NCBI GenBank assembly: GCA_011634665.1
Contig: WAEK01000036.1
Location: forward strand, 1 to 64,000
From: Mortierella sp. BCC40632
Lineage: Eukaryota > Mortierellomycota > Mortierellomycetes > Mortierellales > Mortierellaceae
Reading direction: 5' to 3'
Length of the DNA stretch: 64,000 nucleotides
Shown piece by piece: positions 3,342-56,159 of this stretch; the stretch's first letter is position 1, and every line of letters begins with the position of its first letter. A program made the translations under genes and the position numbers. The notes beneath the pieces are model-generated. The model did not search any database. It worked only from the letters and a program-made list of their open reading frames with translations, and was not told the DNA's origin.

Positions 3342-6300
3342 CTATTTAGTTTTTGTACCTAAATCGAATAACGTGTTTTCTAAAATACCTACTCCTGGTA
3401 AAATAACAAGGAAATAAGCAAAGTAGAAAACTGTACTGATTTGCCCTATCAGTACTAAGGGTTGTTCTGGATGATTAGCTCCGATCCACAGTATTATTAT
3501 CGATAAAGTATTTAACTCTATCTTCCCAATGTCACCATTGGGCTTAGACTATGTTATCAACCAGTAAAATTTAACTGGTTGTAGGGTTCTCGTGTCAGGA
3601 TTATTGTTGGTAGTACTCACCTGTTAGTCGTTGAACGTTCTTGATTCATTTGTTAATAAACAATGTATACCAAATCAAGCTTCGCTGCAAATTGAGTTTA
3701 TTTAATAAACTTGTTCTTGCAATTCACCCTATTTACATTAAAACATTACTGTTTTAAGGGGCTTTTTTAACCCAGGATTAAGAAATTTACTACAAATAAC
3801 CAGTAGAAGAATTTCATAATTGGTCTGAATTGCATAGATCTAATTCTAGAAGTATCAGTTAATGGAGCTATTAATAATATTAATATGGCTGCTACCATAC
3901 CGATTACACCAAGTAGTTTATGTGGAATTGATCTTAAAATTGCATAGAATGGAAGCAAATAGAACTCTGGTACTATAGAAATAGGAGTTACTAGAGGGTT
4001 TGCAGGAATGTAATTATCACTTTCTCCAAAGAAATTTGGATTAAAGAATACAAAATATGCAAATAAGAAGAAGAAAACGAAAACACCTACTAAATCTTTA
4101 AAACTATAGTATGGATGGAATCTAATTCTATCTACATTTGAAGTAATTCCAAGTGGGTTGTTAGCAAATAATAATTAAATTCTTATCAGGCCCTTCCCGC
4201 AGGGGAAAGGGAAGGCCCCCGGAGGGGGCAGGCCTTTCTTATTTTTAATAAAATAATTTATATCCCAAAATAACCTGACGAAACTTAAAAATTTAATTAA
4301 TTATTTCGACTGTACATTAAGCAAAGTGTTCTACTTTACCTACCAGTGACCCAGTCTGTAGCGATTTCCCTCAGCCTCCCGGCTGAGTTATACCGACGGT
4401 CTTCTGCTAAATAGCCATTAACCGTTTTCACTAGTATTGCCTAATAAATCTTACGATTTAAAAAAGATCATTGTCATGATCTTAAAAGGATATTATCCTT
4501 TACGACTATTTATTGTAATAAATTATAAACCTAAAAGACTAATAACATTAAAGTTTGAGATTATCGTGGAAAAAACCATAAATTTTTATATTATATATTT
4601 TTATCTAAATAATAAAGTTTTTATGCTACAATCAAAATATTTCGCAGTTTCTATACGACTTTCAAAAATTTTATAGAGAAACTCCCTCCGGGGGTTTCCG
4701 CCCCGAAAGGGCAGAAACTTTATTTGATATAAGATCTTTAGAAAAACAAATACTTTCTTACTCATTTTAGCCTTGGTTTCTGCAGAATGTGTTTTTCCTC
4801 TTCTAGCCTTACTCATTAAAGCTTTAGTTTCAGCTGAAAGAGTTCTACCAAACATTGGATTATCTTCACCAGTTCTCCCAAACATTGGATGATTTTCACC
4901 TTTTTAGTTTTACTCATTTTCGCTCTAGTTTAATCAGAAATAGTTTTACCTTTATGACTTTCACTAATTTTCAATTTAGTTTCAGCTGAACGAGTTTTAC
5001 CAAAATTCGGATGATTATCACCCAAATTGATTTCACTCAATTCGGATTTAGTTTCTTCTGAGTGATTAAATCCAAGCAAGGAACCGGCTGCGCGCTTCTT
5101 TAAGTGTATTATATGTATTTGGTTCATTTTCCTAAAAGATCTTATCAAGATAAGACTGCTCACATTCCAGAATTCTTTTACGTGTTTCTTCTTTAGATAA
5201 ATTAGAAATATCAATATACTCTAAAATAGATAAACTAAATGAAGAATAAGAATGAAGTATTAATGCTCCCTCCGGGCGCTCCGCCCGGGGGGTGCCCCCC
5301 CCCCTGGGGAGCTCTACTAATATAGTTGTCTGCTGTTTTCAATTGTAAAGGAGAATAGTATTGAAACAGTCTTATAAATAAATTAACAGCAGAACCAACA
5401 TAAATTTTACCTGTTTCTAAATGAGTCCACTGATATATACCAGCTTTACCTCCCCCGGGGGGGGGGTAAAGCCCCCCAGGGGAGCTTTACCTTTATTATC
5501 TAACAAAATTCGTGATTTCTCTGTTTCAGCATTAGAATAAACTTTTATAGGAACAAAAAGTATTCCAATACTATAAACTTCCCCTAGATTTTGTGAGGGG
5601 AAAGAAAGGAATAAAGTAAAGAATAATCCCATTATAAATGAGAATAATCCAAGAATTAGATATAGAGTTTCTATATCCTTAGTTTTTGTTGAATAAAGCC
5701 ATCGTACCATATTTTTTTTTATGTTTGATAATCCTTTATTTATTAAATATTTAAATAAGATTTAAAAAAATCATTTTAAAAAGAAGAACTCGAACAAATA
5801 TCTGAGTTTAATTCTTAGAAAAATGATTCTGATAAATAGAATATGTAATTAATTAAATCCCCGGCCGGCCCGGGGTAATAATTTATATGTTTTAAAGAGG
5901 GAAGCCTAATTTATAAAGCATAGATTCGTGAAAATAAGGTAAAGTCAATTTTCTAATTAAATCAACAGATTCTTTATGAATATAAATTTGATGTTGATTA
6001 ATTTTATAAACAGTATGATAGGTACATTTAATATTAAATTTATTTTTTAATACAGATATTAATAATTCAACTTCTTGTAAAGTAAAACTATGTGTTGCTA
6101 TTTTAATCCCAGGATTTTTCCAAGTACCATCATCTTGAATCCAAATAGCTAAAGATAATGGAGTTAATAAATCATAAATATTATCTGGTATAACTTTTTT
6201 TTTTATTATTATAAAATGATTTATGCAACCATAATAAACTAGAAAAACTGAAAGTATTAAAATAATAAGCATCAAATTCATTATTATTTAATTTTTGTTT

Positions 6301-9300
6301 TATTAATCTTGGAGGGTTATTATTAGTATAACCTCTTTTTAACAAGAATTCGTGTAAATAAAATAAATATTCTTTATGTTCTACACTTTGTTTGAATTTA
6401 AATCTAACTCCACCATTCATTAATCTTTCTCCTGAACAATCACCTAATAATGAACCCACAAAAAATGATATAATTTCTTCATTGTGGGGCCCTATTCTAT
6501 TAATTGCTCTAACATTAGGTTTAGAAAAGGCTAATGATAAAGTTTTAAGTCCACGTTTTTGATCTTTATTAATTTTATGTTTATAATTTTTAAAAATAAA
6601 TTTTGGACCTAAATTTGATCCATGTTCGTGTAGCAAAAATATTATTGATCTAAACTAGGACCTAGTTTATATAACATGTCAGGATGCATATGATCTTTAA
6701 CCAGGGATCTATAATTCACTTTTCATATATATATACTAAATTAACTAGCTAACTAAACCGATTGTCTTGGAAACCTGCTAAATCTTATTCTGAGCCCGGA
6801 GGAACTGAGATAAGTTATATAAAAAATCTTATAAATAATAATTTAAGAAAGAAGAAATGAGGATAGAATAAATTCTTTTTTAAAAATTTTATTAGTATTA
6901 ATATTTCTAGAAATTGTTGATTGATTACAATTAAAATGTTTAGCAGCCTCTGAATAGGAAGAAAACTTCAATAAGACATTAGAAAGATTATCTTTTGAAT
7001 ACACAAATACTTTTTTAGCTTTAATTTCACTCATTATTTTGAATGTCTCTAGAGAATGAGTTTTACCATACATTGGGCTATTTTCTCCTAATCTTGTAAT
7101 CAATTTTTTTTTTTCTCTTTTTTTAAAGCTAAACTTATTTTTTTTTTTTTTTATGCTCTTCTGTGAAAATTCTTTCTTTATTAATTTTACTAAGAACTAA
7201 TCGTGTTTCTTCTGTATGTGGTTACCATATCTAGGATGATCTTTTCCGATTCTTCCAAACATATGATGATTTTCACCACTTATTTTTTCTAATGTTTCCT
7301 CTTTATGTTTGTATCCTAAATTATTTCCGGCATAATTTAATAAATTGAATTTGGGTTTTATTAAATTAATATAATATTGTTCTTTAGAAATTATTTTTTT
7401 TTTTTTTTATTTCATCTTTGGATAGATTAGAAATATCAATATATTCAAGAATTGATAAACTAAATGCTGAATGACCATGTACTCCAATTGCTCTATATAT
7501 AAGTTTTCTCTTTATTTAGACTATATGCTGAATAATACTTATATAATCGTCTACTTTATGGCCTACCAACATATTTTTTACCTGATTCGTGAGTCCATAG
7601 ATATATTCCAGTCTTATTTTTATTTTCCCTAAAAATTGAGTTTTTTTTATCTGTCTCAGCATTAGAATAAATAACAATTGCAGAGATCAAAATTATTTCT
7701 GCTTGTTCAGATCTTTCAAAATTAAATAAGATAATTGAATTTTTCATGTTTATTTTATAAAATTACTATTTGTTCCCAATGTGATTATTAATCACTTATC
7801 TTCGTCTAAAATCGATAATATACTTATTTATTTGACACACTTTATGGTTAGAATTTATTTATATTATATACAAATTATTTATTGTAAGACTCGAACTTTT
7901 TACTAAAATAGTTATTTGCATATAATTCATAAATATAAATTCTTAATATATTTATCAAATTTTATATTTTTGTCAAATTTTTAGCGCAGAAAATTAAAAT
8001 TTAAATAAACATTAGTATCTTATTAAGTCAAGTCTCTTTAATAAAAGACCGCCATTAATTTAAGGAATGATTTTTTATATAACTTTAGTAAATAAATTTA
8101 TTATTTATAATTATTTACTAAATCTCAATGATCTTTAACCAGGGATTTTACTGTACTGTTATTGGGCTTTAGTAATATATAAAGTATATTGAGATCTATC
8201 TTTATACTGAATATTTCTTGAAGCTTTAATAGAGAAATTTTTCTCTAATGCATTTATTAATAAATCTAAATCCTTAGAACTGAATGAATTTGTAAAAATT
8301 CTTAATCCACTACCTGTAAAACTTCCATCATCGCAACGTATGTAGGAATCTGCTAAGGTAAAATTTACAATTCATTCTTATTATTTCTCGCAATCTGAAG
8401 AACCCATGTTTGAACTAATTAAAAAATCTTCGGAACGAGATAAATACCATTTATCCTGAAATAATGAATTATTTCTTATATATCTCATAATTGTAGAATG
8501 AGTAGAATTAAAATATTCAGCAGCTTTTCTAGCTGAACTAAAACTGTTTACTAATGAACCTTGACTATCATAAACATAAATAGTAGTTCCATTTGCAACA
8601 CTTAGTTTTGTTAGAGTCTCTGCGGAATGTCTTTTACCAAAGAAAGGATTAGTCTCACCAGACAAAGCCTCACTAATTTTTAGTTTGTGCTCTTCTGATT
8701 TAGCTACCCCTTTTTTGGCTTCTCTCATTTTTATTAAAGATTCAGCCGAATGAGTTTTACCATACATTGGATGATTTTCAGCCAATCTATTAAACATTGG
8801 ATTATTCTCACCTTTATTAATCTCACTCAGTAAAACCTTTGTTTCAGTACTATGAATTCTATTCTTCATAGCGGCAATAGTTTCCTCAGTGTGTTTATAA
8901 CCTAACGAAGAACCTGCTTCTTTAAGAATATTATAAGTATTAGGTTTATCTACTGAAAAAATTTGATCCAAATAAATTTGCTCACGTTCTAAAATCAACT
9001 TTCGTGCTTCTTCTTTAGATAAACTCGAGATATCAATATATTCAAGTATAGCTAAGGAAAATGCAGAATAAGAGTGACTAAGTAGTGAATTATAGATATA
9101 TACGGTTTTAAATCCCTCTAAATGACTTTCATTTAAGTAGTTCTTAAATCGTTTTGATAAATCTACTGCAGAACCAATATAAATTTTTTTTGACTTAATG
9201 TGGGTCCAGAGGTAAATACCTGCTTTACTTTTATTGTCAGAAATTATTTTTGTCTTATTAGCCTTCACATCAGAATAAACAATAATAGGAACAAAAAGAG

Positions 9301-12300
9301 ATTAAAAAACAGCATCTTCTACCCCATAGAAAAAGACTCGCCAGAAAAGTAAGGATTACTATAATATAAAATACAATAGTAATCATGCCTGAAAATAATA
9401 CTAAATTTAGATATAACATACCTATATCTTTAGCATTTGTTGAAAGCCATCGTTTCATAATTTTTTTTATATATTTGACAATCCTTTATTTATTAAATGT
9501 TTAAATTAGAATATTAGAATCATTTTTTAAGAAATCTTATTCTCAAGTATCAGAAAACCCCGGGCGGGCCGAGGGTTTATAAAAAAAAAAGACTTGAACA
9601 ATCCGGATTAAATGATTTAATTAAAATGATAAAAATATAATAGATTATGTAATTAATTATAATTATTATTCTCAGAAAATGACGATTTGACGTAAGATAA
9701 ATGCTATTTATATTATAAAACAATTTTATATTATTTTAAAGTACTAAGGGTGATGTTGCTGACAAATATATCTATATAAATTTATCTCTCTAGGACATTA
9801 TCCAATAAGCTAAACTTACTGGCGTTAAGAGATCAGCAATATTATCTGGAATTTTTTTTATTTTGTTTTCATAAAAAGAATCATATAATTTGTTGAAACA
9901 TGGAAGAGCTAAAGTAGAGAAACTAAGATTATGTCTAGTTCTACCTGTTTTTGTATCTAAAATGTTAGTTACAGTAGGTGGGGACTAGCCACAAATCTTT
10001 GAAATAATTCATACAAATGTAATAAATAAGATGCATTAGTTGATCCTTGTCTAAATATAACTCTTACGTTAGAATTTTCGGAGAATCTTCTCATGTGGGA
10101 GGGGGCCCAACGGGGTGTTTATTTTATTAATAAAAAAAACCAAAAAAAGATATTATTAAACTGCAAGTTTATACATCAATGATTCATGAAAATATGGTGT
10201 AACAAGAGATCTAAATTTATCCATCGAATCTGACTTAATATAGATTCTATAATTATTTCCACTTTTGTGAATAGGACAATTTAAATCAAAATTATCTTTC
10301 AATACTTTAATCAATAATTCTACTTCACTTAAAGTATAGGAGTCTGTACAAAGTATAAATCCAGATGATTTTATACTACCATCGTCCATTGCCCAATATG
10401 CTAAACCTACAGGAGTCAATAATTCACCAATGTTCAAAGGAATTCTCTTAACTTTATCTACATAAAATAAATCACAATAATAATTGAAACAAGGTAAATA
10501 TCTAGTAATAAAATATACTCTAGTGTATATTTTACCCGTCCGAAAATCAGGTTTTCGGGCATTATATTTAGGCCCTGAAGAACAATAATCTTAAACAAAT
10601 CATATAAATGTAGAATATATGCTTCATGTATTAGCCCTTGTTCAAAATATAAATAAGTATTATGAATAGTAGATTTTCTTTTAACAGAAACATCGCCCAG
10701 AATAATACCTATAAGTACTTCATGTAAATGAGGTGAAACAGAAAAAGAATTCTTCTCTTCATTAGTTAATCTTTTAGTACTATATAATCTATTAACAAAA
10801 CTTGCACGTATATAATTATTAAACTTGAACATTAGATTTGAACTTTCTAGATCATGTCAATTAAGACATGATTTGTATTAAACTATCTTTTAATCAATTC
10901 CTGTTAATTCTTAATAATCGGTCTTAGCCTGTTTATTTTTCATAAATATTTTTTTATACCCTCCCGAGTATATTACCTACTAATACTTGACGTAAGTAGT
11001 CATCAAGTTCATAATTTTCTCTTTCAGCTTTACCTCCCCGGGGGGGTAAAGCCCCCGAAGGGAGCTTTACTCAATCTTTTTACCGAATTACTTATGCTAG
11101 TATGGAAAAGTTTAGCGGTTGACAAGGCCTTCAGCAACGGGGTGGGTGTTAAAGATTTAGATAATTTTCTATATCATTAACGTGTTTCTAATATTAATAT
11201 TTCTCAAACCTGAGAAGGATTACAGTAGATAAAATAACTCTAATTTCAACTGAGCAATCTATAATATATTATAATATAATTACTATTGTTATACTTCTTT
11301 GAAAACAGTGTTATTCAAAGTAGGGAAATTTATCAGATATGGATAAGAGCCACTCGTTTCTAAATAATTTCCCATTTTTAAGTTAATATTGTAGTTCTGC
11401 TTACATTAAAATGTAGAGCCGCTTTTCTAGCTGAACAAAAAGTATTAACAAGTGAACCATCACGAGAATAAACAAAAATTGATGTACCCATCCCAAAACT
11501 AATCTTTGCTTTAGATTCAGCGGAATGAGTTTTACCAAAAAATGATTTTTAGAACCGCTCATATTTGCTTTCTGTTCATCAGATTTTGGTTTTCTCAATT
11601 TTTGTATAGTTTCTTCCGTATGTTTATAACCTAATAAAGAACCGGCTGCGCGCTGTTTTTAGTAGATTATATTTAGGTGAAAAGAAATTAAAATAATATT
11701 GCTCTCGTTCAAGAATCAGTTTACGTGCTTCTTCTTTCTATAAATTCGTAATATCAATATATTCAAGAATTGAAAGACTAAATGTTGAGTATTTATAATC
11801 TTTTAATGCGTTACAAATATACTTTTTATTTCAATCTAAATATTTTATAGAAAAATAAAGTGACATTCGTCTTGATATATCAACAGCAGAGCCTATATAC
11901 ATCTTACCAGATTCATGAGTCCACTGGTATATTCCTGCTTTACCTCCCCCGGGGGGGGGGGTAAAGCCCCCCAGGGGAGCTTTACCTCTGTTATCTGATA
12001 AAATTCTTGATTTGTCAGTCTCAGCATTTGAATAAACAATTACTGGAAGAACAGATAAAAGACAATCGTAATCTAAAGATACTAAAAAATATATTCTAGA
12101 AGAAGGTGGATAAAATAATACCCTAAAATACTGAGTAGAATATTAATTAATAATTTTGTAAAAATTACTTTCTTTTTCGCTAATAATAACATACTTTGAT
12201 GATAAATTGATAGTTGATAGAACCTTCCGTTATATTGAATAAATAAAAATGTCAAATAATTATAAATAAATAAAAATGTCAAATAATTATAAATAAATAA

Positions 12301-15300
12301 TATAAGAAAAGCACATCTGTGAATTAAGATTGTTGATAAATAAAGAGAAGCTTGTGGTATCGTCATTACTAAAATTAAATTTTCTAATAGTAACATATTT
12401 ATATTAAATATCTTTATTTTTTCTTTTCTTCTTTATATTAATCTATTTCTAAATACACCTACTTCCGAAAAAGCTGAATTTTTTTAACAACTTTGAAAGT
12501 CGTATGCCGTCAAGAAAATACGGTTGAGTTATGAACAGTAACTAATAATTTTTTTCAAAATTAAACTGGACTATATCATCATCCTATCTATTCCATATAG
12601 GATATCAAGCGTGTAGTCTCTGAGGTTCCTGTTAGTATATAAATATACATTTAAACCGGTTACCTGCTGATTATTCATTATATTATCCTTAAAATTTTTA
12701 CCGAATGTTTAAGATATAGGTACTTTTTATATTTACCAAATATTTAACATTTTGGTATTTAAGGCTTTTAGAAAATTCCAGCATATAGCTTGATGCTAAT
12801 TATATTATTACTAATATAAAAAGGCCCTACACTTGAGCTATAAAATGCATTACTACTAAAGCTGCTAATATGAATGGTAATAAATAATAATGTAAACTAA
12901 AAGAATCTGTTTAAAAAAGTGGGATTACCTACGCTGAAACCTCCCCATAGAAACTCTACGAAATCATTACCAATCCACGGTATTGCTGACATTAAGTTTG
13001 TAATTACAGTTGCCTAATCTTTAATAAATTTTTTAACCAAAAAACAAATTTATTCCTGTACTATGCTAACCTAGTGTATAACGCTAAGTAGGTAAAAATA
13101 CCGTTAGATAGCCTTGTGATAATATTAATTAAAATATTATAAAGATTCCGACTGTACATTAAGCACCATTTCAGGCACCTACCAATGAGCCAGTCTGTAG
13201 CGATTGTATGAACAACCGACGGTCTTAAACTTTGTTCTTTAACCGTTTTCATTGATATTGCTTTTATCATATCAAACATAATTTTTTCTATTCATATATT
13301 GCAAAATTACTAATGATAAAACTATGACTTAAATTTTTAAATATAACCATTTAATTTATAGTACATCGATGGATGAAGATGAGGGTTTTATAATTTCTGC
13401 TAAATCTTTCATTGACGATTTAGAGATATATAGATTATATTGATTTAAAAGCCCCAGCTTTTATAATAGATACTTTTAAGTTATATTTATCTCTTAATAT
13501 TTTTAGCTAAAATATTAACTTCATCATAAAGTAAAACTATTTGTAGCTATTTTTTAAGCCTGAGGGATACTTTTCCTCCATCATCTTGGATCAGACTGCT
13601 AAAAGCTAAAGGTGATAAGTATTCATCTAAATTATTAGGTATTACTTTAATACCATCTTTATAGAAAAGATTCATGGATCAATTAAAACTTGAAAAAAAG
13701 TGTAAGTTTTAAATCTAGAAATATATCTTAATTTACCTTGTTTACCTATTCTTGAAGTTATTTTTAGGTATTGTACTATTACAATATCTAATTCATAAAT
13801 AATTATGAAACCATAATAAATAAAAATTGTGTAAATGCTCTTGTTGAAAGCAAAATCTAGTACCGTTCCCATGTTTTCAGCATGGGCATCTCCTAATAAA
13901 AAGATCCAATCAAAATAGAAAGGACCTTATAGTCATGAGGGACCTATTCTATTTCGCTGATTTTGTTTTTGGAGCTATAAAAGGTAAAATTGAACTATAT
14001 AAATTAAATTGTTTGGATTTGTATTTAAAAACTTAAGTCATCTTGGGCACAAAATTTACCCCAGAAGCTCATTTGCCCGTATGGAAGTACATACCAATTT
14101 CCTAAATTAAACATAAATATGGTTTTATATATTTTCTTCTAGTTCAATTTACCTGTACCTTATCAACTTATTAATCCCCCAAGTTTTAACTCTTTCTAAT
14201 AAGTATCATTTAAGGCCTTGTGAAAAAATATATATAGTCTTTTTAAAAAAGCAATTAGACTTTTATAATTTTTTGGAAATTCCGACTGTACATTAAGCAT
14301 CATTTTTAGATTAAAATTAATTAACTAAATCAGACACCCATTAGTGACCCAGTCTGTAGCGATTATTCACATAACCGACGGTCTTAAAAAAGAAGATTAA
14401 TTTTTAACCGTTTTCACTAATGTCGCCAGAGAGATCGATGATACTCTCCAATATTAAATAAAAGATATAAGCGAAAAACAAAAGTTGGGTGTTAAAATAT
14501 GACGTATCATATTGGATAGTCCCCTTCTATCCCTTCAGGTTCTGAGTTAACTTTTTGGTTAATTAATTAAAGATGTAGATAAGATCCATTGTTCTTTTAA
14601 ATAATTTACCATTTTTTTGCATATCTTAAAATTGTATCATAGAAACATTAAATTCCTCAGCAGCTTTTCTAGCGGAAGAAAAACTATTAATTAATGTTAT
14701 CTTATCAGGGAGGAATATATATATATAGTAGTACCAAATATTTCACTTAATTTTGCTTTAGTCTCGGGTAAAATAAATTTACCCCTTATTAATATTACTC
14801 AGTAAAAGCTTTTAGTTTTCAGCTGAATGACTTTTTACCTTTATTGGGATGATTCTTACCTTTAAAAGGGGCTTCACTAATTAAAGCTTTAGTCTTATCA
14901 GAATGTTTTTACCTAAATTAGCAACTCTCATTTTTTCTCCTTAGTTTTTCAGTGGAATGGGTTTTACCAAAAGAAAGGATGATTTTCTCCTGACATAATT
15001 TCACTAAGTTTTTTTTTATAGTTTCTGCCCTTTCGGGGCGGAAACCCCGGAAAGGGAGTTTCTGTAAAAAACTGTTTTACCTAAATGAGTTTGACTAATT
15101 TTTTTATTAATGATTCTTCAGTATGTTTATAACCTAACCTAAAAAAGAACCTGCTTTATTAAGTATATTATATTCGGGTCGTAATGAATCTAAGTAATGT
15201 TGTTCCCGTTCTAAATTGGTTTTTTGCCTCATCCTTTGATAAATTCGAAATATCGAAATATTCAGGGATAAATAAAGAAAAACGCTCCAAATCCATGCTC

Positions 15301-25799: not shown

Positions 25800-26706
25800 G
25801 ATAAAATCCATCCATTTTTTTATATAATTTATTTTTTATCTAAATAATTTGTTATAGTACGTGTGGAACAGTCAAAAGAATTTAGCAGCATCAGTACAAG
25901 TATTAAAAGATTTATACAGTATAGTTTCTTTTTGTCTCTGGATTTAATGAATAAACATATACTATTTTACTCACTGGGTTATTTTTTTCACCAGCTCTTG
26001 AAGACTCATTAAAGCTTTAGTATCATCAGCAGTATGTGTTTTACCAAACATCGGATTATTCTTACCTAAATTGATTTCACTTAATAAGGCCTTAGTATCA
26101 GCAGTATGAAATTTTCCAAATCTAGGACTATTCTCACCTAAATTGATTTCACTCAATAAAGCTTTAGTGTCTGCTGAATGAGATTTACCTAAAAAACCTC
26201 GAGGGTTTTATCACCAATCATGCAACACTAATTAAAGTTTTAGTTTCTGCAGAAAGAGATTTATTAAATAATGATTTGTACCACTTCTTTTAGCTATTGA
26301 TTCTTCACTATGTTTGAATCCTAGGGAAGATCCGGCTGCGCGCTATTTTAAGTATATTATAAGTATTAGGTTCGTCTACCAAAAATATTATATCAAGATA
26401 TTTTTGCTCACTTTCAATGATTAAATTATGTGATTCTTCAACAGATAATCCCGAGATATTTATATATTCTAAGATTGATAAAGTAAATGCTGAATATCCG
26501 TGATGAAGAAGTCCTCTAGAAATATAATAATCTTGTAATCGATTAGATAAATCAAATGCAGAACCAATATAAATTCTATCGCTTTCTATATGTTTCCACA
26601 TATAAATACCAGCTTTACCTCCCCCGGGGGGGGGTAAAGCCCCCCAGGGGAGCTTTACCTTTGTTTTCTGATAAAATGATAGATTTTTTAGAATTAGCAT
26701 TATCAT
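25800..26706 (-). pseudogene. GIY-YIG endonuclease fused to the nad5 C-terminus
   Basis: The nad5 frame runs into YDNANSKKSIILSENKGK, where a GC cluster (26612-26659) shifts it. Then [55 protein letters not shown], damaged NUMOD3 repeats (LGENSPRFGKFHTADTKAL) and a NUMOD1-like end near 25800. Without the GC cluster nad5 and the nuclease would be one reading frame. Both flanks are nad5 3' sequence, the usual footprint of a HEG that brings its own gene end. Confidence 0.82.
26612..26659 (-). repeat. GC hairpin cluster, family A (target GCTTTACC)
   Basis: Plus strand: GCTTTACC (26612-26619), GC hairpin, GGTAAAGC (26633-26640), GC hairpin, GCTTTACC (26652-26659). Confidence 0.9.
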
Positions 26707-26839: not shown

Positions 26840-29800
26840 AAAAGAACCTAATTTATTTACTTTATTTAAATAAAAAGAACCTTCTGAGTGGGGGGAGTTT
26901 GTCTTTGTTGTAAAACGACGAGAATTTAAAACAAATAAAGTAGAAACAAACACTAATAGTAATCTTGCATCATCTAGGTATAACACTGATGCTGTTAATG
27001 TGATAACAGATAAAATGATATACAAGGCGTAGTTTGGGATGTACCCATTATCTACTGAAGCTAAATTTCTACTAGTACTAGAGAATAAATTAGTCAATCC
27101 TGTTGGACCTACTAATTCTAGTACACCTCTATCCACTACTTTTGTGTGTTATGTATCTAAATTAAGGATTAAAACTACTAAACGAGAATAAACTAAATCA
27201 AAAAAAATATTTTTGGTTAAGGAACGTATATATCGTTCTTCCCAATTTAGACAGTTTAATTTCAACTAAAATGTTGGGAACAAACTCATAGAATAATAAT
27301 GTACCTACAAAACCAAAAATTGTTAAGATAGATGGTAATAATTTAATGAACAATGGTATTGCAAATTCAGCATCCACAAAGTATAATATTGTTTGGATGA
27401 ATGAATACTGCATTTCAAAAAAATCACTTCCCATTCAATAAACAGATCTTTACTTAAATAACCAAAAACTACTGACAGTATAGCAAGTATTCTAATGGAA
27501 TTGCCATAAAAAAAGGAGCTTCATGAGTATTCTCATAATTATTTCTAGGACCATTAGGTATTGAAAAGAATGTTAAATATAACAATCTAGTAGTATAAAT
27601 AGAAGTAAAAAAAAGCTGCTAAGGTTGTTAACCAATAGGCGAAAAGAACCTTGAAATGTGTACTGTCCGAATCCTGATAATATAATTATCTCTTTCGAAT
27701 AGAAACCAGATAAGAACGGAAAAGCGATGTTACTTAGAGCGGCTATAAACATTACTACGAAAGTATACGGCAATAAGTGAGCTAAACCTCCCATTTTTCT
27801 AACGTCCTGTTCATCAGCCATCGCATGGATAACTGAACCGGCTGCTAAAAAAAAAAGTGCTTTTAAAAAAGCATGATTAATAATATGATAAAAAGCTATG
27901 TTATATTGGCTTAAACCACAAACTGCACCTAAATATCTAATTGACTAGCTGTTGAATAAGCAATTATTCGTTTAAGATCATTTTGAACTAATCCGATAGA
28001 AGCAAAAACAAATGCAGATAATGAACCTAAACATGTGATTATTATTAATGCTGTACTACTATATTCTAATAATGGTGAAGTTCTAATCATTAAAAAAATT
28101 CCAGCTGTTACCATTGTCGCTGAGTGAATTAAAGCTGAAACTGGGTAGGACCCTCCATGGCCGTAGGTAGCCAAGCGTGCAGACCTAATTGAGCGGACTT
28201 AGCCATAACACCTATTAATAAACATAAACTAATAAATGTTAAAATATCAGTATTAATATATGGAGCTAAAAAGAGAATATATTAGAATAATCTAAATTCC
28301 CAAATACAAAAATAATTGCAAAAAGAGCAATAGACATTCCCCAATCACCTACTTTATTAGTAACTATAGCTTGTATTGCTGATTTAGTAGCAGCTATTCT
28401 TGTAAACCAAAAACTAATTAGTAAATACGAGCAAACACCTACACCTTCCCAACCTACGAATAATACTAATAAATTATCTCCACATACTAATAATAGCATA
28501 GAAAGTAAAAGCTGATAAATAACTAAAAAGAATCTCTGAGTGTGCATGGCAATCAAATTAATCATGCAATTAAATATTAGAAATATCTCTACCTCTATTT
28601 ATCCCAGACTTTATTTTTTCCGTATTAAATTTAATCCTTCAGGTGTAAGATGAGAATTATCTATCATTAACATAACAACTTTACACCAATCAAGATAATC
28701 AAGATGTTTTACACCAAGCAAAAGGATTTTCCTTAAATAGAGGGATTATTATATTAGAGATATCCGAAAATTTAGTAATCATTATTACTACAGCAGCTTT
28801 ATCGGAATACTTATACAATTTTCCAGCACCTAGATATTTTATGATAGTTTCCATTAATTTTTTATCTCTATCATGTTGATTAATTCTAAATCTTAATTGA
28901 ACTCGAAAACCTGTTTTACTTCTTGATTGGCTAATTCTTATATCGAAATATACTAGTTTATAGGGGCCCGATGGGGGTGTTTAAAAAAATAAAATTAATT
29001 ATAACACTTAAAATAGATTATCCGTTACTATCAATGTTGTCCTTACTCATTTTATACATCATAGATGGCACAAAATAAGGTGAAACTAAATTTCTTAAAT
29101 CATTTAAGGATTTAGTTCTCACGTAAATTCTTAATTTATTAGAATCTCGTTTCATAGGATTACAATTAATATTGAATTTCTCCTTTAAAACAGATATAAG
29201 TAATAATACTTCTTGTTCTGAATAAGATTCAGTACAAATGCTTAAACTAGTACTGTGTTTAAAAGAATCATCCATTAACCAATAAGCTAAAGATCTAGAA
29301 GTTAAAAGTTCACCAATGTTCAAAGGAATTCTCTTAACTCCATCTACATAAAATAAATCACGATAATAATTGAAACAAGGTAAAGAATAAGTGGCAAAAG
29401 AAACCCTAGAGTAAATTTTCCCTGTTCGAAAATCAGGTTTACGTTCACCGTATTTAGGGCCTGTACCACAATAACCTTTAAATAAATCATATAAATGTAA
29501 TAAATATGCTTCATTTATTAAACCTTGCTCAAATACTAATAAAGCATTTCTATAATCTCTACGGATATGTAAATCTCTAAAAAGATAAGCCTATAATTAC
29601 CTCATGTAATTCTGGAGAAACAGTAAAAAAAATTTCTCTCAACATTAGTTAATCTTTTTTTAGTACTATAAGATCTATTAACAAAACCTGCACCTTTTAC
29701 AGAACCAGCACCTATTAATTTAAAAATTGTAAACATATTAGACTTGAACTTTTGATGACGTGCTAATTAAAGCTCGACTTGAATTAAACTATCTTTTAAT

Positions 29801-32800
29801 CAATTCTTGTTATTTATAAACATTCTCATCAGGCCCCCTATTTAGACAGATGAACCTGAAGTAAATCCTGAAATCCAATTAGGATCGGGGATGTTTTCAG
29901 TATTAATGATTTCTCTTTCAACAGGGTAAAAATTTTTAAACTCAGATTTTTAAAAATCGGATAAACCTTTATTCATTGAAGCTTTCAAATTAATAATTTG
30001 ATAAATCCCTTCTATCGAAAGATGAGCTTTATTATTCATTAAATTAATTGCTTCTTTAAACAAAATAAAATCCGCAGCTTTTTGAGTTAATAATGGATAT
30101 TTTTCTAAAAAAGTTATTAGTATTGTTAAATCTTTTTTAGAGTTAATTGTATAGTTTAACATATCAGATGAGGAATTTGTATATATCGTTCCGATTCCAC
30201 CAAAAAATTCTTGTAATTGTAATAATAATGATAAATCTCGTTTATCTAGACCTAGTGGAATTTTGGTTCTACTCGCCACCCTGTTTTATGTGTTTTACTA
30301 TTACTTATTATAAGACTGAAGCTACCTTCAGCATCTATAAGACCACTCCAAAACCAAGGGTTTAGATTTGATGAACCTTTAGAAGTAGAAAATTCTCTGC
30401 GATTTAATTGGTTAGAAGGGATTTTGAATTGATAGTTTCTTTCGAAACCCATTAGAGTACATCTAAAATGCATAGGATTATATTTAACTATGCACCAACT
30501 ACCGTATACTCGTTGCTCTTTTACACCATTAAAAATTAATGATGATTTAGATCCGCGATTGCCTATTTTTCTTTTGTCTATCTTATGACTTGTTACCGTA
30601 CATGGGTCATTACTCCATCCACCTACGGACTTGCGGCCGAGGCTTGGTATCATAAGCTTTAAGGCTTCCCCGGAGTTTGGCAGTTTTATCCCAAATAATA
30701 TTTTCCCAAAATATTTGGCAGGATCAGCTCCCATATATGAAATTGAATACATATGAACTAATGAAGAAATAAATACAACTGGTATTAACATTGAACAACC
30801 CTAATTAACTTGCCTTAATGTCGCCTCTGAAATTATCACTAAGAAATAGACATTAAGAGTAGTTTCTCTACTTAGGAGTTTATGACCTTTGCGGAAAGGC
30901 TATCCACTGTGCGTAGTGTTTTTTTGATAAATATTTCCTCCCTACGATCTCGCACTCGTTATAGGGCCCGACTGTACATTTAGACAGACATTTCAGCCTA
31001 ACCTTGGTGAACCAGTCTGTAGCGACATTTATAACTGCCGACGGTCTTGGAGTATATTCTCTTTAACCGTTTTCACCGATATATATAAGTATAGGATTGT
31101 TTGATTATAATCTTGCTCAATCCCTAATTATACCTTTATTAACATATTATCTCATTAATATTCAAGAAGATAAGATTTCCTTTCCAAATTTCCTTATTAT
31201 ATATTATCCTATTCCTTAGTTATTAAAGATGCGGATAAAATCCACTGATCTTTAAATAACTTACCACTATTCAAATAATTTACAATTGTTACATGAGAAC
31301 ATTCAAAGAACTTTCCTGCCTCTCTAGTTGAATAAAAACTATTTACTAGAGAACCTAGACTATCATAAACATATATAGTTGAACCTCTAGCAATTCTAAT
31401 TTTAGCTTTCGTTTCAGCAGTATGAGTTTTTCCTGTTTTAGCGATTCTCAATTTAGCAATTGTTTCCTCAGAAATGTTTTTTACCAAACATTGGATTGTT
31501 TTCACCTTTCTTGGCAACACTCATTTTAACTTTAGTTTCTGCTAAAACAGTTTTACCAAAGTTTGGATGATTCTCACCTCTTATACCAAACATTGGATGA
31601 TTCTCCCCAGATTTAGCTTCACTCATTAAAGCAAGAGTTACTTCACTATGTTTATAACCTAGTAAAGAACCCGCAACTAGTAATATGTTAAATTTGGGTT
31701 TAAGCTCATTAAGATAGAATTGTTCTCGTGATAAAAGTTCTTTTGACTCACAATATTCAAAAACAATTAAATAAAAATCTTGTAAATTATATTTATTTAT
31801 TGCTCTTTGTAGTAAAATATTTGATTTTTTGCCCTTAATATGATTATTAAAGCGAGTGGCTAAATCAATTGAAGAACCTATATATAGTTTGTCATTAGTT
31901 TTACAAATAAACCCGTAAACACCTGGTTTATTTTTCAATTCTTTTTTAATAATATCCTGAATTTCTGCTAAATGTAAATTACCTATCAATTGCTCGATGG
32001 TAGAAAAAAAAGGTTTAAGTTGTGTCATTGTTTTTTTTTGTTTTAAAATCCTTTATTTATTAAATATTTTACTTAATTTTAAAGACCATTTAAAAAAAAG
32101 GAATGAAGAAAGATTTGAACTATGTTGTTCAAAATACCTTTATCTAAATGATTCCTAAAAAGATTGATTATGTAATTAATTGTTATTATTTAAAATATTA
32201 TTATAAAATCGGTAAACGCTATAAATTAGATACTTTGGATTAGACAGAATTGAAAAATTTAATTAACCTAATCAAAATAGCTCTGCTAGGTTCCAATTAT
32301 TCTAGCAGGCTTATTATATAAATTCTTCTATAATTTAAAGGAACAGGTACTTAGATAAAAAGAAGTTCTTACTAAGAACTTCTTATTAAAATAATTCAGC
32401 TCACTAATTAACGAATATCTTTATAATGAGTGTTAAATGGTATTGATTTATTCAAAAATTTTTTAAGCATAGCTCCTGCGGCCATATTTATTCTATAAAG
32501 AATTAGGCCCATGAATAGGCCCCCGCAGATGCCTAATGAATGCTGGTATAATGTCATCAATAAATTGATAGATTGAAAAATTGTGGTCTACGAAGGGACG
32601 TTTATTTATATATAATTTAATGATTTAGGTATTATTTACCCTCCTCCTCCCCTACCCTAATGAGAAATATAAAATATACATAAGGTAGACACTATGTTTT
32701 CTTGAGTGCAAAAATACTTTTTCGCATTTAACTAGTCAAGACCGCATTACTAAAATTGTTTTCTGGGCCAAAAATAACAACTTAGACCTTTAAACCAAAT

Positions 32801-36434: not shown

Positions 36435-36525
36435 ATGTTATTATTAATATTTTTTATATTAGTAATGACAACATCATTAGCTTCTCTTTATTTATCAACA
36501 ATCTCAATACATAGAATTGCTTTTT
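36435..36525 (+). pseudogene. nad2 5'-end fragment
   Basis: ATG followed by LLLIFFILVMTTSLASLYLS and TISIHRIAF, a copy of the nad2 N-terminus. The homology stops after about 30 codons. A tail-like GGGCCCAACGGG (minus sense) lies immediately before it. No endonuclease follows directly. Confidence 0.8.
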
Positions 36526-36529
36526 AATA

Positions 36530-36955
36530 TTTCTATTTAGTACTTTATTATATGATATGTAATTATTAGTAGAAATATTAAGGGGGCCCAATACAGACGG
36601 GGTAATTTTAACTATTATTATATCTAAATTATGATACATTATTGTTATTTACCCCACCCTCTTCCTTCAGAAGAATAGTCTCTAAGGGACCTGTTATAGT
36701 TTATTCTAATGCGGATTCTTATAAATCAATTTAGATGATAAAAAATTAAAAACAGAAGTCTATCAATAGACACATCAGAATCAGGCAAATATAAGTTGGT
36801 TCTTAGTGGATTAATCTAAGCTATTTAGATTTTATTACCCAATAAATCATTTAACTCGTTATATTCATATGCTTATTATGCTCCCAAGGATGCTCGCCCG
36901 CAGTTTATTTATAAACATTTCAAAAAGAAAGGGAATACCCCGGCGGGGTCCCGAC
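36530..36955. other. Spacer
   Basis: No gene recognised. It includes a tail-like GGGGGCCCAATACAGACGGG near 36583 and a partial family B GC cluster near 36880-36905. Confidence 0.4.
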
Positions 36956-50499: not shown

Positions 50500-50605
50500 A
50501 ATTCTTACTATTAGCCCCCTTCATTATTTCAGATATAGTTACAGCTTAGTAAAGGGGGATTTTTAATTCCTTGGTTCATTACTACTCCCGGAACTAGGGG
50601 AATCA
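50500..50605 (-). repeat. Copy of the rns 3' flank
   Basis: Minus strand GGAGTAGTAATGAACC, AAAAATCCCCCTTTACT, AGCTGTAACT and AAGGGGGCTA, matching 52145-52225, the sequence that joins the rns 3' end to the next HEG. Confidence 0.82.
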
Positions 50606-50609
50606 AGAG

Positions 50610-50645
50610 GAGGGGCCCACCGGGGGGGGGGTGTTATATTTAAGA
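50610..50645 (-). terminator. Tail element
   Basis: Minus strand ATAACACCCCCCCCCC then GGTGGGCCCC, directly after the LAGLIDADG cassette 50669-51357. Confidence 0.55.
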
Positions 50646-50668
50646 TTTAAATAACACTATATAATGAT

Positions 50669-51357
50669 CTAATCAGATTTAACTTTAAGTTTATACATCA
50701 TTGATGAATGGAAATGTGGAGTAACAAGAGATCGAAATTTATCCATTGAATCTACCTTAATATAAATTCTATACCGATCTTTACTTTTCTTGTGAGATGT
50801 ACAATTTAAATCAAAATTTTCCTTTAAAACTTTAATTAATAACTCTACTTCACTTAAAGTATAGGAGTCAGTATTTAGATGAAAACCATTTTCATGTTTA
50901 CTACCATCATCCATTGCCCAATATGCTAAACCTACAGGTGTTAACAATTCACCAATGTTTAAAGGAATTCTTTTTTCTCCATTTACATAAAATAAATCAT
51001 AAATATTATTAAAACACGGCAATGAATATGTTTGAAATATAACTCTAGAGTAAATCTTACCTGTCCGAGAATCAGGCTTACGATCACTATATTTAAGGCC
51101 TAAATTACAATAATCTTTAAATAATTCATACAAATGTATTATATATGCTTCATGAATTAAGCCTTGTTCAAACTGCAATCTCGCATTTATACCTCTAAAA
51201 ACTTTACGGATACATAAATCCCCTAAAGATTAAACCAATCTTACCTCATGTAAATCTTGAGATACAGAAAAATTTTTTTTTTTATAACATTAGTTAATCT
51301 CTTAGTACTATAAAACCGATTAACATAACCTGCACTTAAATTATTAAAATAAAACAT
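50669..51357 (-). pseudogene. LAGLIDADG cassette, one or two frameshifts
   Basis: [12 protein letters not shown], then a damaged stretch with the first motif (51225-51300; VRLV.SLGDLCI), then an open 169 codons: [51 protein letters not shown], second motif [33 protein letters not shown]. It follows the LAGLIDADG gene at 51601, which ends at its own second motif. Confidence 0.85.
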
Positions 51358-51430
51358 TAGACTTGAACTTTCTAGATTATGTCAATTAAGACATGATTTG
51401 TATTAAACTATCTTTTAATCAATTCTTGTT
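51358..51430 (-). ncRNA. tRNA-like leader of a LAGLIDADG cassette
   Basis: AAAGATAGTTTAATACAAAT, hairpin ATGTC..GACAT, AAAGTTCAAGTCTA, then the start codon. Nearly identical to 10833-10907. Confidence 0.6.
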
Positions 51431-51439
51431 ATTTATAAT

Positions 51440-51525
51440 TTTTCATGCTAAAAAAACATGACTTAGATAAAACTATTTTCATGCTAAAAAACATGACTTA
51501 GATAAAACTATTTTTTATTATTTTT
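51440..51525 (-). repeat. Tandem repeat, 2 copies of about 37 bases
   Basis: Unit with TTTTCATGCTAAAAAACATG and ACTTAGATAAAACTA, repeated head to tail. Confidence 0.85.
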
Positions 51526-51600
51526 AATAAGAAAACAGTCTTTGACCTGGTTAATCTCTTGTTATATTATAAATATAAATAATTACCCGCTATTAACTAT

Positions 51601-52140
51601 TTATATACCACCTGCTATAAATCCTGATATATAATTACCATCAATAGGAATATAATTATCATTATTTTTATTACAATGTGAAGGTAAATAATTTTCTATA
51701 ATTATACGTGATTTATTCATACTTTTAAATAAATCAGCTAGTTTAGTAATACCGTCCGAAGTCAAATGACTTCCTGATGTTATAATCTCAGCAGCTAAAC
51801 ACCAAGATTCAAAATCTTGGAATTTATTACCTCTTAAAGGGTAAGATTGAAAATGTGGTATAATTATATTATTTATATCTGATATTTTAGAAACAGTAAA
51901 ATGAATCATTCCATTTGTACGTGGCTTAGATATAATCCCACAATTAAAGTAATTTTGTACTACTTTTAGTAATTCTATATCATTATCCATAATAGCAATT
52001 GAAAATCTTAATTTAGCTGTTTTTTACCTGATTTAGTTTTATAAATATTTATATTGAAACAACCCTCTGCTTCAGTAAATCCTGTCATAAACCAAGCTAA
52101 TTTATAGTTATTTATCATAATTTTACGTTTTCCAGGGATA
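51601..52140 (-). pseudogene. LAGLIDADG gene next to rns, cut at its second motif
   Basis: PGKRKIMINNYKLAWFMTGF, first motif GFTEAEGCFNI, one shift near 52020, KLRFSIAIMDNDIELLKVV, PHFQSYPLRGNKFQDFESW, IPIDGNYISGFIAGG, then a stop where DGS.F would follow. The second half of the enzyme was not found. It lies about 70 bases downstream of the rns 3' end. A LAGLIDADG cassette follows the break. Confidence 0.82.
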
Positions 52141-52211
52141 ATATCTTATTCTCATAGCCCCCTCTATTTGAGATTCAGTTAGTTACAGTAAAGGGGGATT
52201 TTTAAATCCCT

Positions 52212-53900: not shown

Positions 53901-54379
53901 CATATGAATAAAAAAGTTAGCTGATATATTTATAGGCCCCCTACCAGAGACTAAATTAATAGTATAATATTTAAGCTCTTAATTTATACATCAATGATTC
54001 ATGAAAATATGGTGTAACAAGAGATCTAAATTTATCCATCGAATCTGACTTAATATAGATTCTATAACTATCTTTCCCTCTTTTATTATAAATACAATTT
54101 AAATCAAAATTTTCTTTTAAAACCTTAATTAATAATTCTACTCCAGTTAAAGTATAAGAATCAGTACATAAATGTAAACCACTATTATGCTTACAGCCGT
54201 CATCCATTGCCCAATAAGCCAAACCAACAGGTGTTAATAATTCATTTATATTCAAAGGAATTCTTTTAACTCCATTGTAATAGAATAAATCATAATTATT
54301 ACTAAAACAAGGTAAAGACAAAGTTTTAAATCTAATAGAAGAATTAAACTGACTTCCTAATACTATTTCGCCTCTAGTA

Positions 54380-55230
54380 TTAATCCTTAGTAATTAAGGA
54401 AGTTGATAATTTCCATTTATCTTTAAAGATATTTGACCATTTTGAGCATATCTCAAGATTGTATTTTGAGAACATTCAAAATGTAATGCAGCTTTTCTAG
54501 CAGAAGTAAAACTATTTACAAATGAACCGTGGAATCATATTGATAAATAGCAGTTCCTTGTGTAGCACTAATTAAAACTTTAGTTTCTTCAGAATGACTT
54601 TTACCATAATTTGGATGATTCTCACCTAATTTAGCTATGCTCATCTTAGTACGTGTTTCAGCAGAAAGAGATTTTCCTTTATTGGCTTCACTAATTATTG
54701 CTTTAGCTTCTTCACTATGACTTTTACCAAAATTTGGATGATTGACTCCAGTTCTACCAAATAAAGGATGATTTTCACCAGATCTTTTCGCTAATGATTC
54801 TTCATCATGTTTAAAACCTAGCAAGAACCTGCAATTTAAGTATATTATAAGTATTTGGTTCATCCTCCGAAAAGATCAAATCAAGATAATATTGCTCACG
54901 TTTAATAATCAATTTACGAATTTCTTCTGTAGATAAATTAGAAATATCTTTATACTCAAGAATATTTAGAGAAAATGCAGAATATCCATGACAAAGAAGA
55001 GCGTTATATATATGCATAGATTTATTACGATTTAAATAACTTTTAATAAAATAATTTTTTTAATCGTTTAGATAAATCCATTGCAGAACCAATATAGATT
55101 TTACCAGATTCGTTATGTTTCCACTGATATACTCCTGCTTTTCCTTTACTATCCTTTAGAATTTGATCCTTACAAGTTTCTGCATTAGAATAGATAATAA
55201 CTGAAACAATATTATTTTTTAAATTGGTTC
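54380..55230 (-). pseudogene. GIY-YIG cassette with a nad4L-type leader
   Basis: Linker [30 protein letters not shown], then HIYNALLCHGYSAFSLNILE, YKDISNLSTEE, KREQYYLDLIFSEDEPNTYN, NUMOD3 repeats ([35 protein letters not shown]) and NUMOD1 ([19 protein letters not shown]). Shifts near 55050, 54830 and 54530. The stretch after 55246 repeats the nad4L leader. Confidence 0.82.
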
Positions 55231-55476
55231 GATTCTTCTCCCGCCCGATGATTAATAGTATACTTATTTATTTGACACACTTTATGGTTATAATAATAAT
55301 AAAGGGGGTAGTAGACTTGAGCAATTACTCTTCTTGAATCACAATTAAAAATTAAAGTCAAGCATATTATTATTTATTATTGTTATTATATATGAAATAT
55401 ACTGTTATAATTTTAAAGTAGGTTTGCCGAGATTTTCACAAGAATATATTAAACCGGCTGCGCGTTCTTTTATCTA

Positions 55477-55522
55477 GTTTACCCTCCCCCCCGGGGGGGG
55501 TAAACCCCAAGGGAGTTTACCC
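55477..55522 (-). repeat. GC hairpin cluster, family A (target GTTTACCC)
   Basis: Plus strand: GTTTACCC (55477-55484), GC hairpin, inverted copy GGGTAAAC (55498-55505), GC hairpin, GTTTACCC (55515-55522). It is in LAGLIDADG codons. Confidence 0.92.
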
Positions 55523-55849
55523 TTATAAAGTTTAGGAGCAGAACCACAATAATCTTTAAACAAATCATATAAATGTAAAATATAAGCTTCATTATTTGAA
55601 CCTTGCGCGAATTGCAATCTTAGATTTTACCCGGTTTGGTTATACATAGATCACCTAGACATAAACCAATAAGAACTTGTTCTAAATCAGGATTTATAGA
55701 AAAAGAATTTCTTTCATTCTTAGATAATCTACCAGAACTATAAGATCTATTTAGAAACACTGCATTCGTTAATCTTGTAACAAAATTAAGATCTAATTTT
55801 TGTTTAGGATTACCCGTTACTCTAATTAAAGGTATGAAAAAAAGAATAG

Positions 55850-56159
55850 GGAGGGAGGGGACTCGAACCAATTTAACAATCCAATTTAAAAACATCATTT
55901 TTTGGAGAGTCATAATTCTAATCAATTATTTCCGCTCCCTCTATTTTTATCTCACGCCGATCTCCCCTATTCTTTCGAATAGTCAGCTACATAATATAAC
56001 TCGGCTCTCTGGGCGTATAAATTAAAGGAAATAAAATTACGATTAATAATAGAAAGGAATATGATAAATATTAAGGGTTCAGCTTCATGATAGGGATAAA
56101 TATTTAGTAATAGATAGATATAAAGAAGAAAAGGTGAATAAGTAATATTTAAAATAATA
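55850..56159. other. Spacer upstream of nad2
   Basis: It begins with the tRNA 3'-half-like repeat (GGGGACTCGAACCAATTTAA, minus sense) and continues with the repeat shared, inverted, with 37850-38020. The last 60 bases (TAATAGATAGATATAAAGAA) match the leader in front of the nad2-like GIY-YIG gene at 12397-12450. Confidence 0.6.

Follow-up and report, generated by a model that had tools for sequence, protein, structure and literature searches.

What breaks a homing endonuclease gene directly in front of its own catalytic codons? The question is raised by a cob intron in the mitochondrial DNA of the fungus Mortierella sp. BCC40632. This intron lies in a stretch of 64,000 nucleotides, hereafter the window, which is part of contig WAEK01000036.1 (C36) in an assembly of 49.9 Mb and 62 contigs. 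The window holds fungal mitochondrial genes, which were translated with table 4. Within the intron, an I-SceI-like LAGLIDADG_2 gene (host 1, also called host a below) is broken into four pieces by three cassettes that carry endonuclease genes themselves. We propose that this cob-intron gene was probably killed by other homing endonuclease genes, and that the family to which the first cassette belongs inserts at the DNA of the catalytic Asp/Glu codon of its rivals.

The four pieces follow one another on the minus strand, to which all coordinates of this intron refer. Piece 1 (10963-11125) ends with VLVGNILG, directly before the Asp codon of motif 1. Most of the aligned relatives shown continue at this point with DV(H/Y)MRR, and about two codons (Asp-Val) are gone at the break (GNILG|D). 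Piece 2 (9796-10097) runs from HMRRFSENS to LAYWIM and ends directly before the Asp codon of motif 2, where no codon is lost (YWIM|DD). Piece 3 (8128-8332) runs from DDGSFTGSG to YITKAQ, continues in another frame with SLVKDH and ends in the first copy of a 19-nt direct repeat (8146-8128). Piece 4 (6642-6708) begins with the second copy (6708-6690), and the third break thus lies near the C-terminus, between the two repeats. The catalytic residues of I-SceI are the Asp of each motif. In host 1, the frame is broken before both of them, so that the two Asp are not in one open frame. The original prediction, made from the sequence of the window, had described four ordered pieces, three cassettes, two breaks at the motifs and a 19-base direct repeat, all of which were found. 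The mapped junctions place the breaks at motif codons for cassettes 1 and 2 and not for cassette 3.

Piece 1 is likewise interrupted, after KRLSK, by a cluster rich in GC (11070-11026) with GTAAAGCT at its flanks, and the stretch before this cluster gave a weak profile match (E 0.55). Separately, GC-rich palindromic clusters with (G)GTAAAGC(T) flanks stand inside several endonuclease open reading frames (ORFs) of the window (5441-5490, 11026-11070, 11937-11985 and 26610-26658), where they are often readable in frame.

That the pieces stem from one parent gene, as had been predicted, is borne out by their relatives. When the four pieces were read through as one query, 142 relatives were found, of which the best (P0001, 247 amino acids) has no interruption and is 86% identical along the entire query. 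A profile of 231 positions, made from 34 relatives, matches all four pieces at consecutive stretches (22-49; 50-88 and 87-149; 145-206; 199-229), and PF03161 matches pieces 2 and 3. The joined pieces hence tile uninterrupted LAGLIDADG_2 relatives, and host 1 is, as judged from its sequence, a dead member of the I-SceI-like LAGLIDADG_2 (PF03161) family. In a search of viral contigs, no uninterrupted DNA allele of host 1 was found. Among the 120 listed host relatives are many protein fragments whose first residue is Met68 of P0001 or whose last is Tyr163, both adjacent to the motifs. These ends were rejected as evidence of recurrence because Met68 is the next ATG, and the end at Tyr163 is an effect of using table 11 where TGA encodes Trp.

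Cassette 1 (10098-10962) contains an I-SceI-like LAGLIDADG_2 ORF (ATG at 10832); the leader in front of it, from about 10905 on, is one that atp9 has as well, and the 3' tail is GC-rich. The ORF matches over the profile with both Asp, and among solved structures I-SceI is nearest to an intact paralogue (5.4e-21). A frame shift at about 10580 is present on C36 and on a second contig, C42, is not found alike on two others, C46 and C40, and is possibly a sequencing error. The cassette spans 865 nt for an ORF of about 675 nt, which leaves little room for a ribozyme core. Cassette 2 (8333-9795) is a GIY-YIG ORF (ATG at 9458) behind the 5' untranslated region (UTR) and start codons of cox1 (9525-9364, 84% over 166 nt). 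Together with its leader it is open on C42 up to an indel, and beyond that point it is open on C36. Cassette 3 (6709-8127) is a decayed GIY-YIG ORF (ATG at 7747) preceded by the nad4L 5'UTR up to the ATG (7853-7744, 83% over 116 nt), and a stop in its GIY-YIG region is common to C36, C42 and C46. Upstream of the broken gene, a further GIY-YIG ORF (cassette 0, 11384-12455) has a nad2 5' leader (84% over 161 nt). Cassettes 0, 2 and 3 all match the GIY-YIG profile; the frames of 0 and 3 are broken. A GIY-YIG query against viral contigs returned 19 loci, all of them distant.

Parts of the window recur on C40, C42 and C46, whose longest alignments to C36 have 97.5%, 98.2% and 96.3% identity and many small indels. 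These contigs are taken as redundant, unpolished assemblies of one mitogenome, with real haplotypes as the alternative. The order of the elements is identical on C42, C46 and C40 as far as each contig extends (the C40 alignment stops at window position 6823, so that piece 4 is not covered by it), and we therefore regard the architecture as real. The frameshifts, on the other hand, are suspect because the assembly is rich in indels; piece 2 has a 2-nt insertion on C36 only. With such differences between C36 and the other three contigs, ORF counts are unreliable without polishing.

Do the motif hits in host 1 require an explanation at all? A dead endonuclease ORF in an intron might be neutral ground, on which cassettes pile up anywhere and fall into motifs by chance. 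Host 1 indeed holds three cassettes and a GC cluster. Moreover, cassette 3 is off-motif, and so are the GIY-YIG cassettes of host g, described below, and of a second LAGLIDADG_2 gene (53971-55925, minus strand), which is broken by a cassette with a nad4L 5' leader (55401-55251). The LAGLIDADG_2 genes of the window have four cassette breaks, and the post hoc probability that two or more of these fall in motifs is 0.049; that two or more fall no further than one codon from a catalytic Asp has a post hoc probability of 0.005. Counting the GC cluster as a fifth break raises these values, equally post hoc, to 0.077 and 0.008. The original prediction had also called the LAGLIDADG codons the most conserved DNA of any such gene. 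When eight-residue windows over 207 positions were ranked on proteins alone in 52 relatives, break 2 came 7th, break 1 42nd and break 3 173rd (among 11 relatives of a wider set, the ranks were 5th, 38th and 121st), so that the statement is only partly borne out. Taken alone, the motif hits in host 1 are suggestive only.

What makes chance on neutral ground unlikely is that all five LAGLIDADG_2 insertions found inside a LAGLIDADG gene, in five different hosts, stand at the acidic codon of a motif. Flanks were read for 12 LAGLIDADG_2 copies, eight on both sides and four (L047, L050, L051 and L043) on the upstream side only. The five inserted copies are cassettes a (cassette 1), b, c, f and g, four of them with both host halves and c with the first half only. 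Apart from cassette 1 itself, they are relatives of cassette 1 and stand at the acidic codon of the second motif in four LAGLIDADG_1 genes that belong to this mitogenome too (GFTSG|, GFIAG|, GFISD| and LAGFIDT|). The prediction that an enzyme directed at LAGLIDADG codons could attack many competitors fits this recurrence at the same codon in four further genes.

Host b is a LAGLIDADG_1 gene of the I-OnuI type in a nad5 intron (28681-30350, minus strand). It breaks off at NWISGFTSG, is interrupted by a cassette-1 relative at about 29853-28950 and resumes with FDIRI. All 120 listed of its 940 nad5-type homologs align through the break, and the next residue is Glu or Asp in 119 of them (one reads SEGGN); host b therefore lacks E-G-(N/S). 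Host c, beside rns (50590-52145, minus strand), reads NYISGFIAG up to a cassette-1 relative at 51402-50669 whose own frame is broken. The second half of host c was not found, and cassette c had no match in the search of viral contigs. The other two hosts lie on contig C33. Host f (L046) ends with QWVSGFISD and resumes with GGFSIII, the lost acidic residue being deduced from I-PanMI (...GFVDAEGCF) with a possible error of one codon, and host g (L045) ends with SWLAGFIDT and resumes with DGGFSIKGF. Hosts b, c and f match solved I-OnuI-type LAGLIDADG_1 structures. If six of about 300 codon boundaries are counted as target, five hits out of five would have, by simple arithmetic, a probability near 3e-9 were the events independent. 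Homing within one lineage, the hypothesis itself, makes them non-independent.

Among other LAGLIDADG loci, the fragmentary LAGLIDADG_2 loci L043 and L044 have frame breaks and gave no GIY-YIG match. At C33:9513-10370 and C48:14083-12830, LAGLIDADG_2 and LAGLIDADG_1 matches lie close together in open frames of 360 and 434 amino acids, which suggests in-frame fusions.

Four of the five hosts are LAGLIDADG_1 genes broken at motif 2, as would be seen if a single ancestral insertion into one such gene had been followed by copying of the composite, together with its host, to new introns. The first halves of hosts b, c, f and g, however, have pairwise identities of 18-36% (for g, over no more than about 55 residues), whereas cassettes a-f are 51-72% identical (g left out), which argues against copying of one composite. 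In addition, host 1 is a LAGLIDADG_2 gene broken at motif 1, and cassette f has the 5' region of cox1 (77% over 294 nt) in place of the atp9-type leader. We thus consider a single insertion very improbable; from these comparisons, the cassettes appear to have moved between hosts, or into hosts, at the motif site. Such movement could also proceed by recombination via short homologies in the motif DNA, with no cut made there by the enzyme of the cassette. Immediately ahead of the break, hosts b, c and f all have TCAGGATTTA, codons were lost at two junctions, and a 19-nt duplication surrounds cassette 3. Yet the same-codon break is also seen in host 1, whose DNA differs and for which homology alone is no explanation. 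This makes recombination of that kind improbable as well.

The second recurrent feature of the cassettes is their leaders. A search for the 5' regions of cox1, nad4L and nad2, which covered 43.5 kb of C42 and C46 besides the window, gave seven extra copies with a length of 100 nt or more, all in the window. Six of the seven have a GIY-YIG domain 17-234 nt downstream. The seventh, a partial nad2 copy at 36435-36551 on the plus strand (82% over 118 nt), has no GIY-YIG domain behind it, and neither have three shorter matches to nad2 (65, 26 and 26 nt). Six control segments, including the nad5 5' region, gave no extra copy in the same search. The GIY-YIG gene in L045 has a nad2 leader. The LAGLIDADG_2 cassettes a, b, c and g share a common leader, which is found immediately in front of atp9 as well (at about C33:45.6 kb); this atp9-type leader occurs at 20 places in the assembly, redundant contigs included, and the reversed pattern at none. 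Among the 120 listed of 707 GIY-YIG relatives, at least seven start with an apparent cox1 N-terminus (also recognized as PF00115). Others listed start with stretches that are presumably nad2-, nad4L-, atp6- or cob-like. Some of these relatives may be ORFs fused to true exons.

In our best reading, the active-site DNA of the motifs would be one of the insertion sites of the cassette-1 LAGLIDADG_2 family. An enzyme of the cassette-1 type would cut the motif DNA of a rival, and repair of the break would copy the cassette into the cut site. The rival would not be restored, because the cassettes, as the length of cassette 1 suggests, consist of the bare ORF, leave no space for a ribozyme and would not be spliced. 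Leaders taken from respiratory genes would allow translation at the new site. Cassette 3, which is decayed and lies at the dispensable C-terminus, would have arrived first, and the two fatal motif hits later. This scheme explains neither the 19-nt duplication nor the loss of codons. A bolder version, to which we give about even chances, is that a homing endonuclease lineage has specialised as a predator, recognising active-site DNA that rivals cannot change without losing activity and carrying a leader that gives translation wherever it has landed.

Several observations weigh against the reading of motif DNA as a cut site. Seven of the 12 LAGLIDADG_2 copies with flanks read are not in a motif: d lies behind a GIY-YIG ORF, e at cox2 and l at cox3, to which L047, L050, L051 and L043 are added. 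Only one of the four GIY-YIG insertions in LAGLIDADG genes is at a motif (cassette 2, at motif 2), the others being cassette 3, the cassette of host g and the one that breaks the gene at 55.9-54.0 kb. In its target DNA, host 1 is very unlike the other four hosts, and insertions a and b came with a loss of codons, which clean homing would not cause. That the cassettes lack a ribozyme is deduced from their length; when 4100-13000 was scanned with Rfam for intron cores, there was no match, and the host intron's own core was missed too. The atp9-type leader is also present at C33:44164 and C33:46015, places for which there was no reported LAGLIDADG_2 match, so that it may have been copied from atp9 or onto atp9. 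Finally, all recurrence cases come from one assembly.

The surroundings of the broken gene differ in one respect from the single cob intron 5 of the original prediction, which is split in two by a mini-exon of 16 nt, CTACACGAACATGGAT (6633-6618, minus strand). Splice sites were deduced from the cob reading MHFIA|LHEHGS|NNPLG. The intron with host 1 accordingly spans about 12835-6634, behind an upstream exon that ends with ATAGCT at 12836, and the next intron spans 4165-6617, with the following exon starting at 4164. This next intron, on the same strand, holds an exon-fused LAGLIDADG ORF (6617-5892), which is a single open frame on C42, and then a GIY-YIG ORF with a cox1 leader (5779-5628).

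Endonuclease genes and introns inside endonuclease ORFs, cassettes with duplicated respiratory 3' ends and an atp9 fusion are already in print. In the Leptographium cox1-212 intron, a LAG(2) endonuclease gene is inserted in a resident GIY-YIG ORF (PMC10448965). As here, one homing endonuclease gene stands within another in a fungal mitochondrial intron; unlike here, the site is N-terminal, part of an intron was brought along, the ORF is in frame with the exon, and the available description gives no active-site codon and no recurrence (PMC10448965). In Ophiostoma montium cob-490, a LAG(2) gene is apparently interrupted by a potentially single-motif LAG gene, again LAGLIDADG in LAGLIDADG in cob, in a description that gives no motif position (PMC12308204). 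Mobile elements also interrupt endonuclease ORFs or their introns in Chaetomium mS1247 and Cryphonectria nad5 (PMC8393795) and in Leptographium cox1-281 and Raffaelea cox2-657 (PMC7902536). In these four cases the inserted element is an intron, whose splicing restores the ORF in Chaetomium (PMC8393795), whereas the cassettes described here look like bare ORFs. In Phlebia radiata, endonuclease cassettes stand beside duplicated C-termini of cox2 and atp6, that is, with the 3' end of the host gene, unlike the 5' leaders before the endonucleases here (PMC4019555). Copy e of the present assembly resembles the Phlebia type: at C42:46138-47400, this LAGLIDADG_2 copy lies behind the cox2 end and is followed by a second cox2 3' stretch. 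In Sclerotinia borealis, a second atp9 copy without a stop is fused to an unrelated stretch of 213 amino acids (PMC4162613). A 5' respiratory-gene part thus precedes another ORF, as here, but it is the whole atp9 gene, and the added stretch is not termed an endonuclease in the text available (PMC4162613). Fusion to an upstream exon is described as giving endonucleases access to expression signals (PMC7487136). In the literature searched, which covered few subscription papers and those cited in part, we found no precedent for recurrent insertion at LAGLIDADG active-site codons, nor for respiratory 5' leaders as a rule on endonuclease cassettes, the nearest being the atp9 fusion and the statement on exon fusion.

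Targeting of conserved, essential host sites by selfish genes is known. In the case proposed here, the essential site under attack is that of a second selfish gene, and mobile elements would be engaged in an arms race within an organelle. The leaders suggest how free-standing endonuclease genes obtain expression signals. Our reading makes one concrete prediction, cleavage of the motif DNA. If the cassette enzymes do cut it, such attacks might limit the spread of introns and explain the fragmented look of many fungal mitochondrial endonuclease ORFs.

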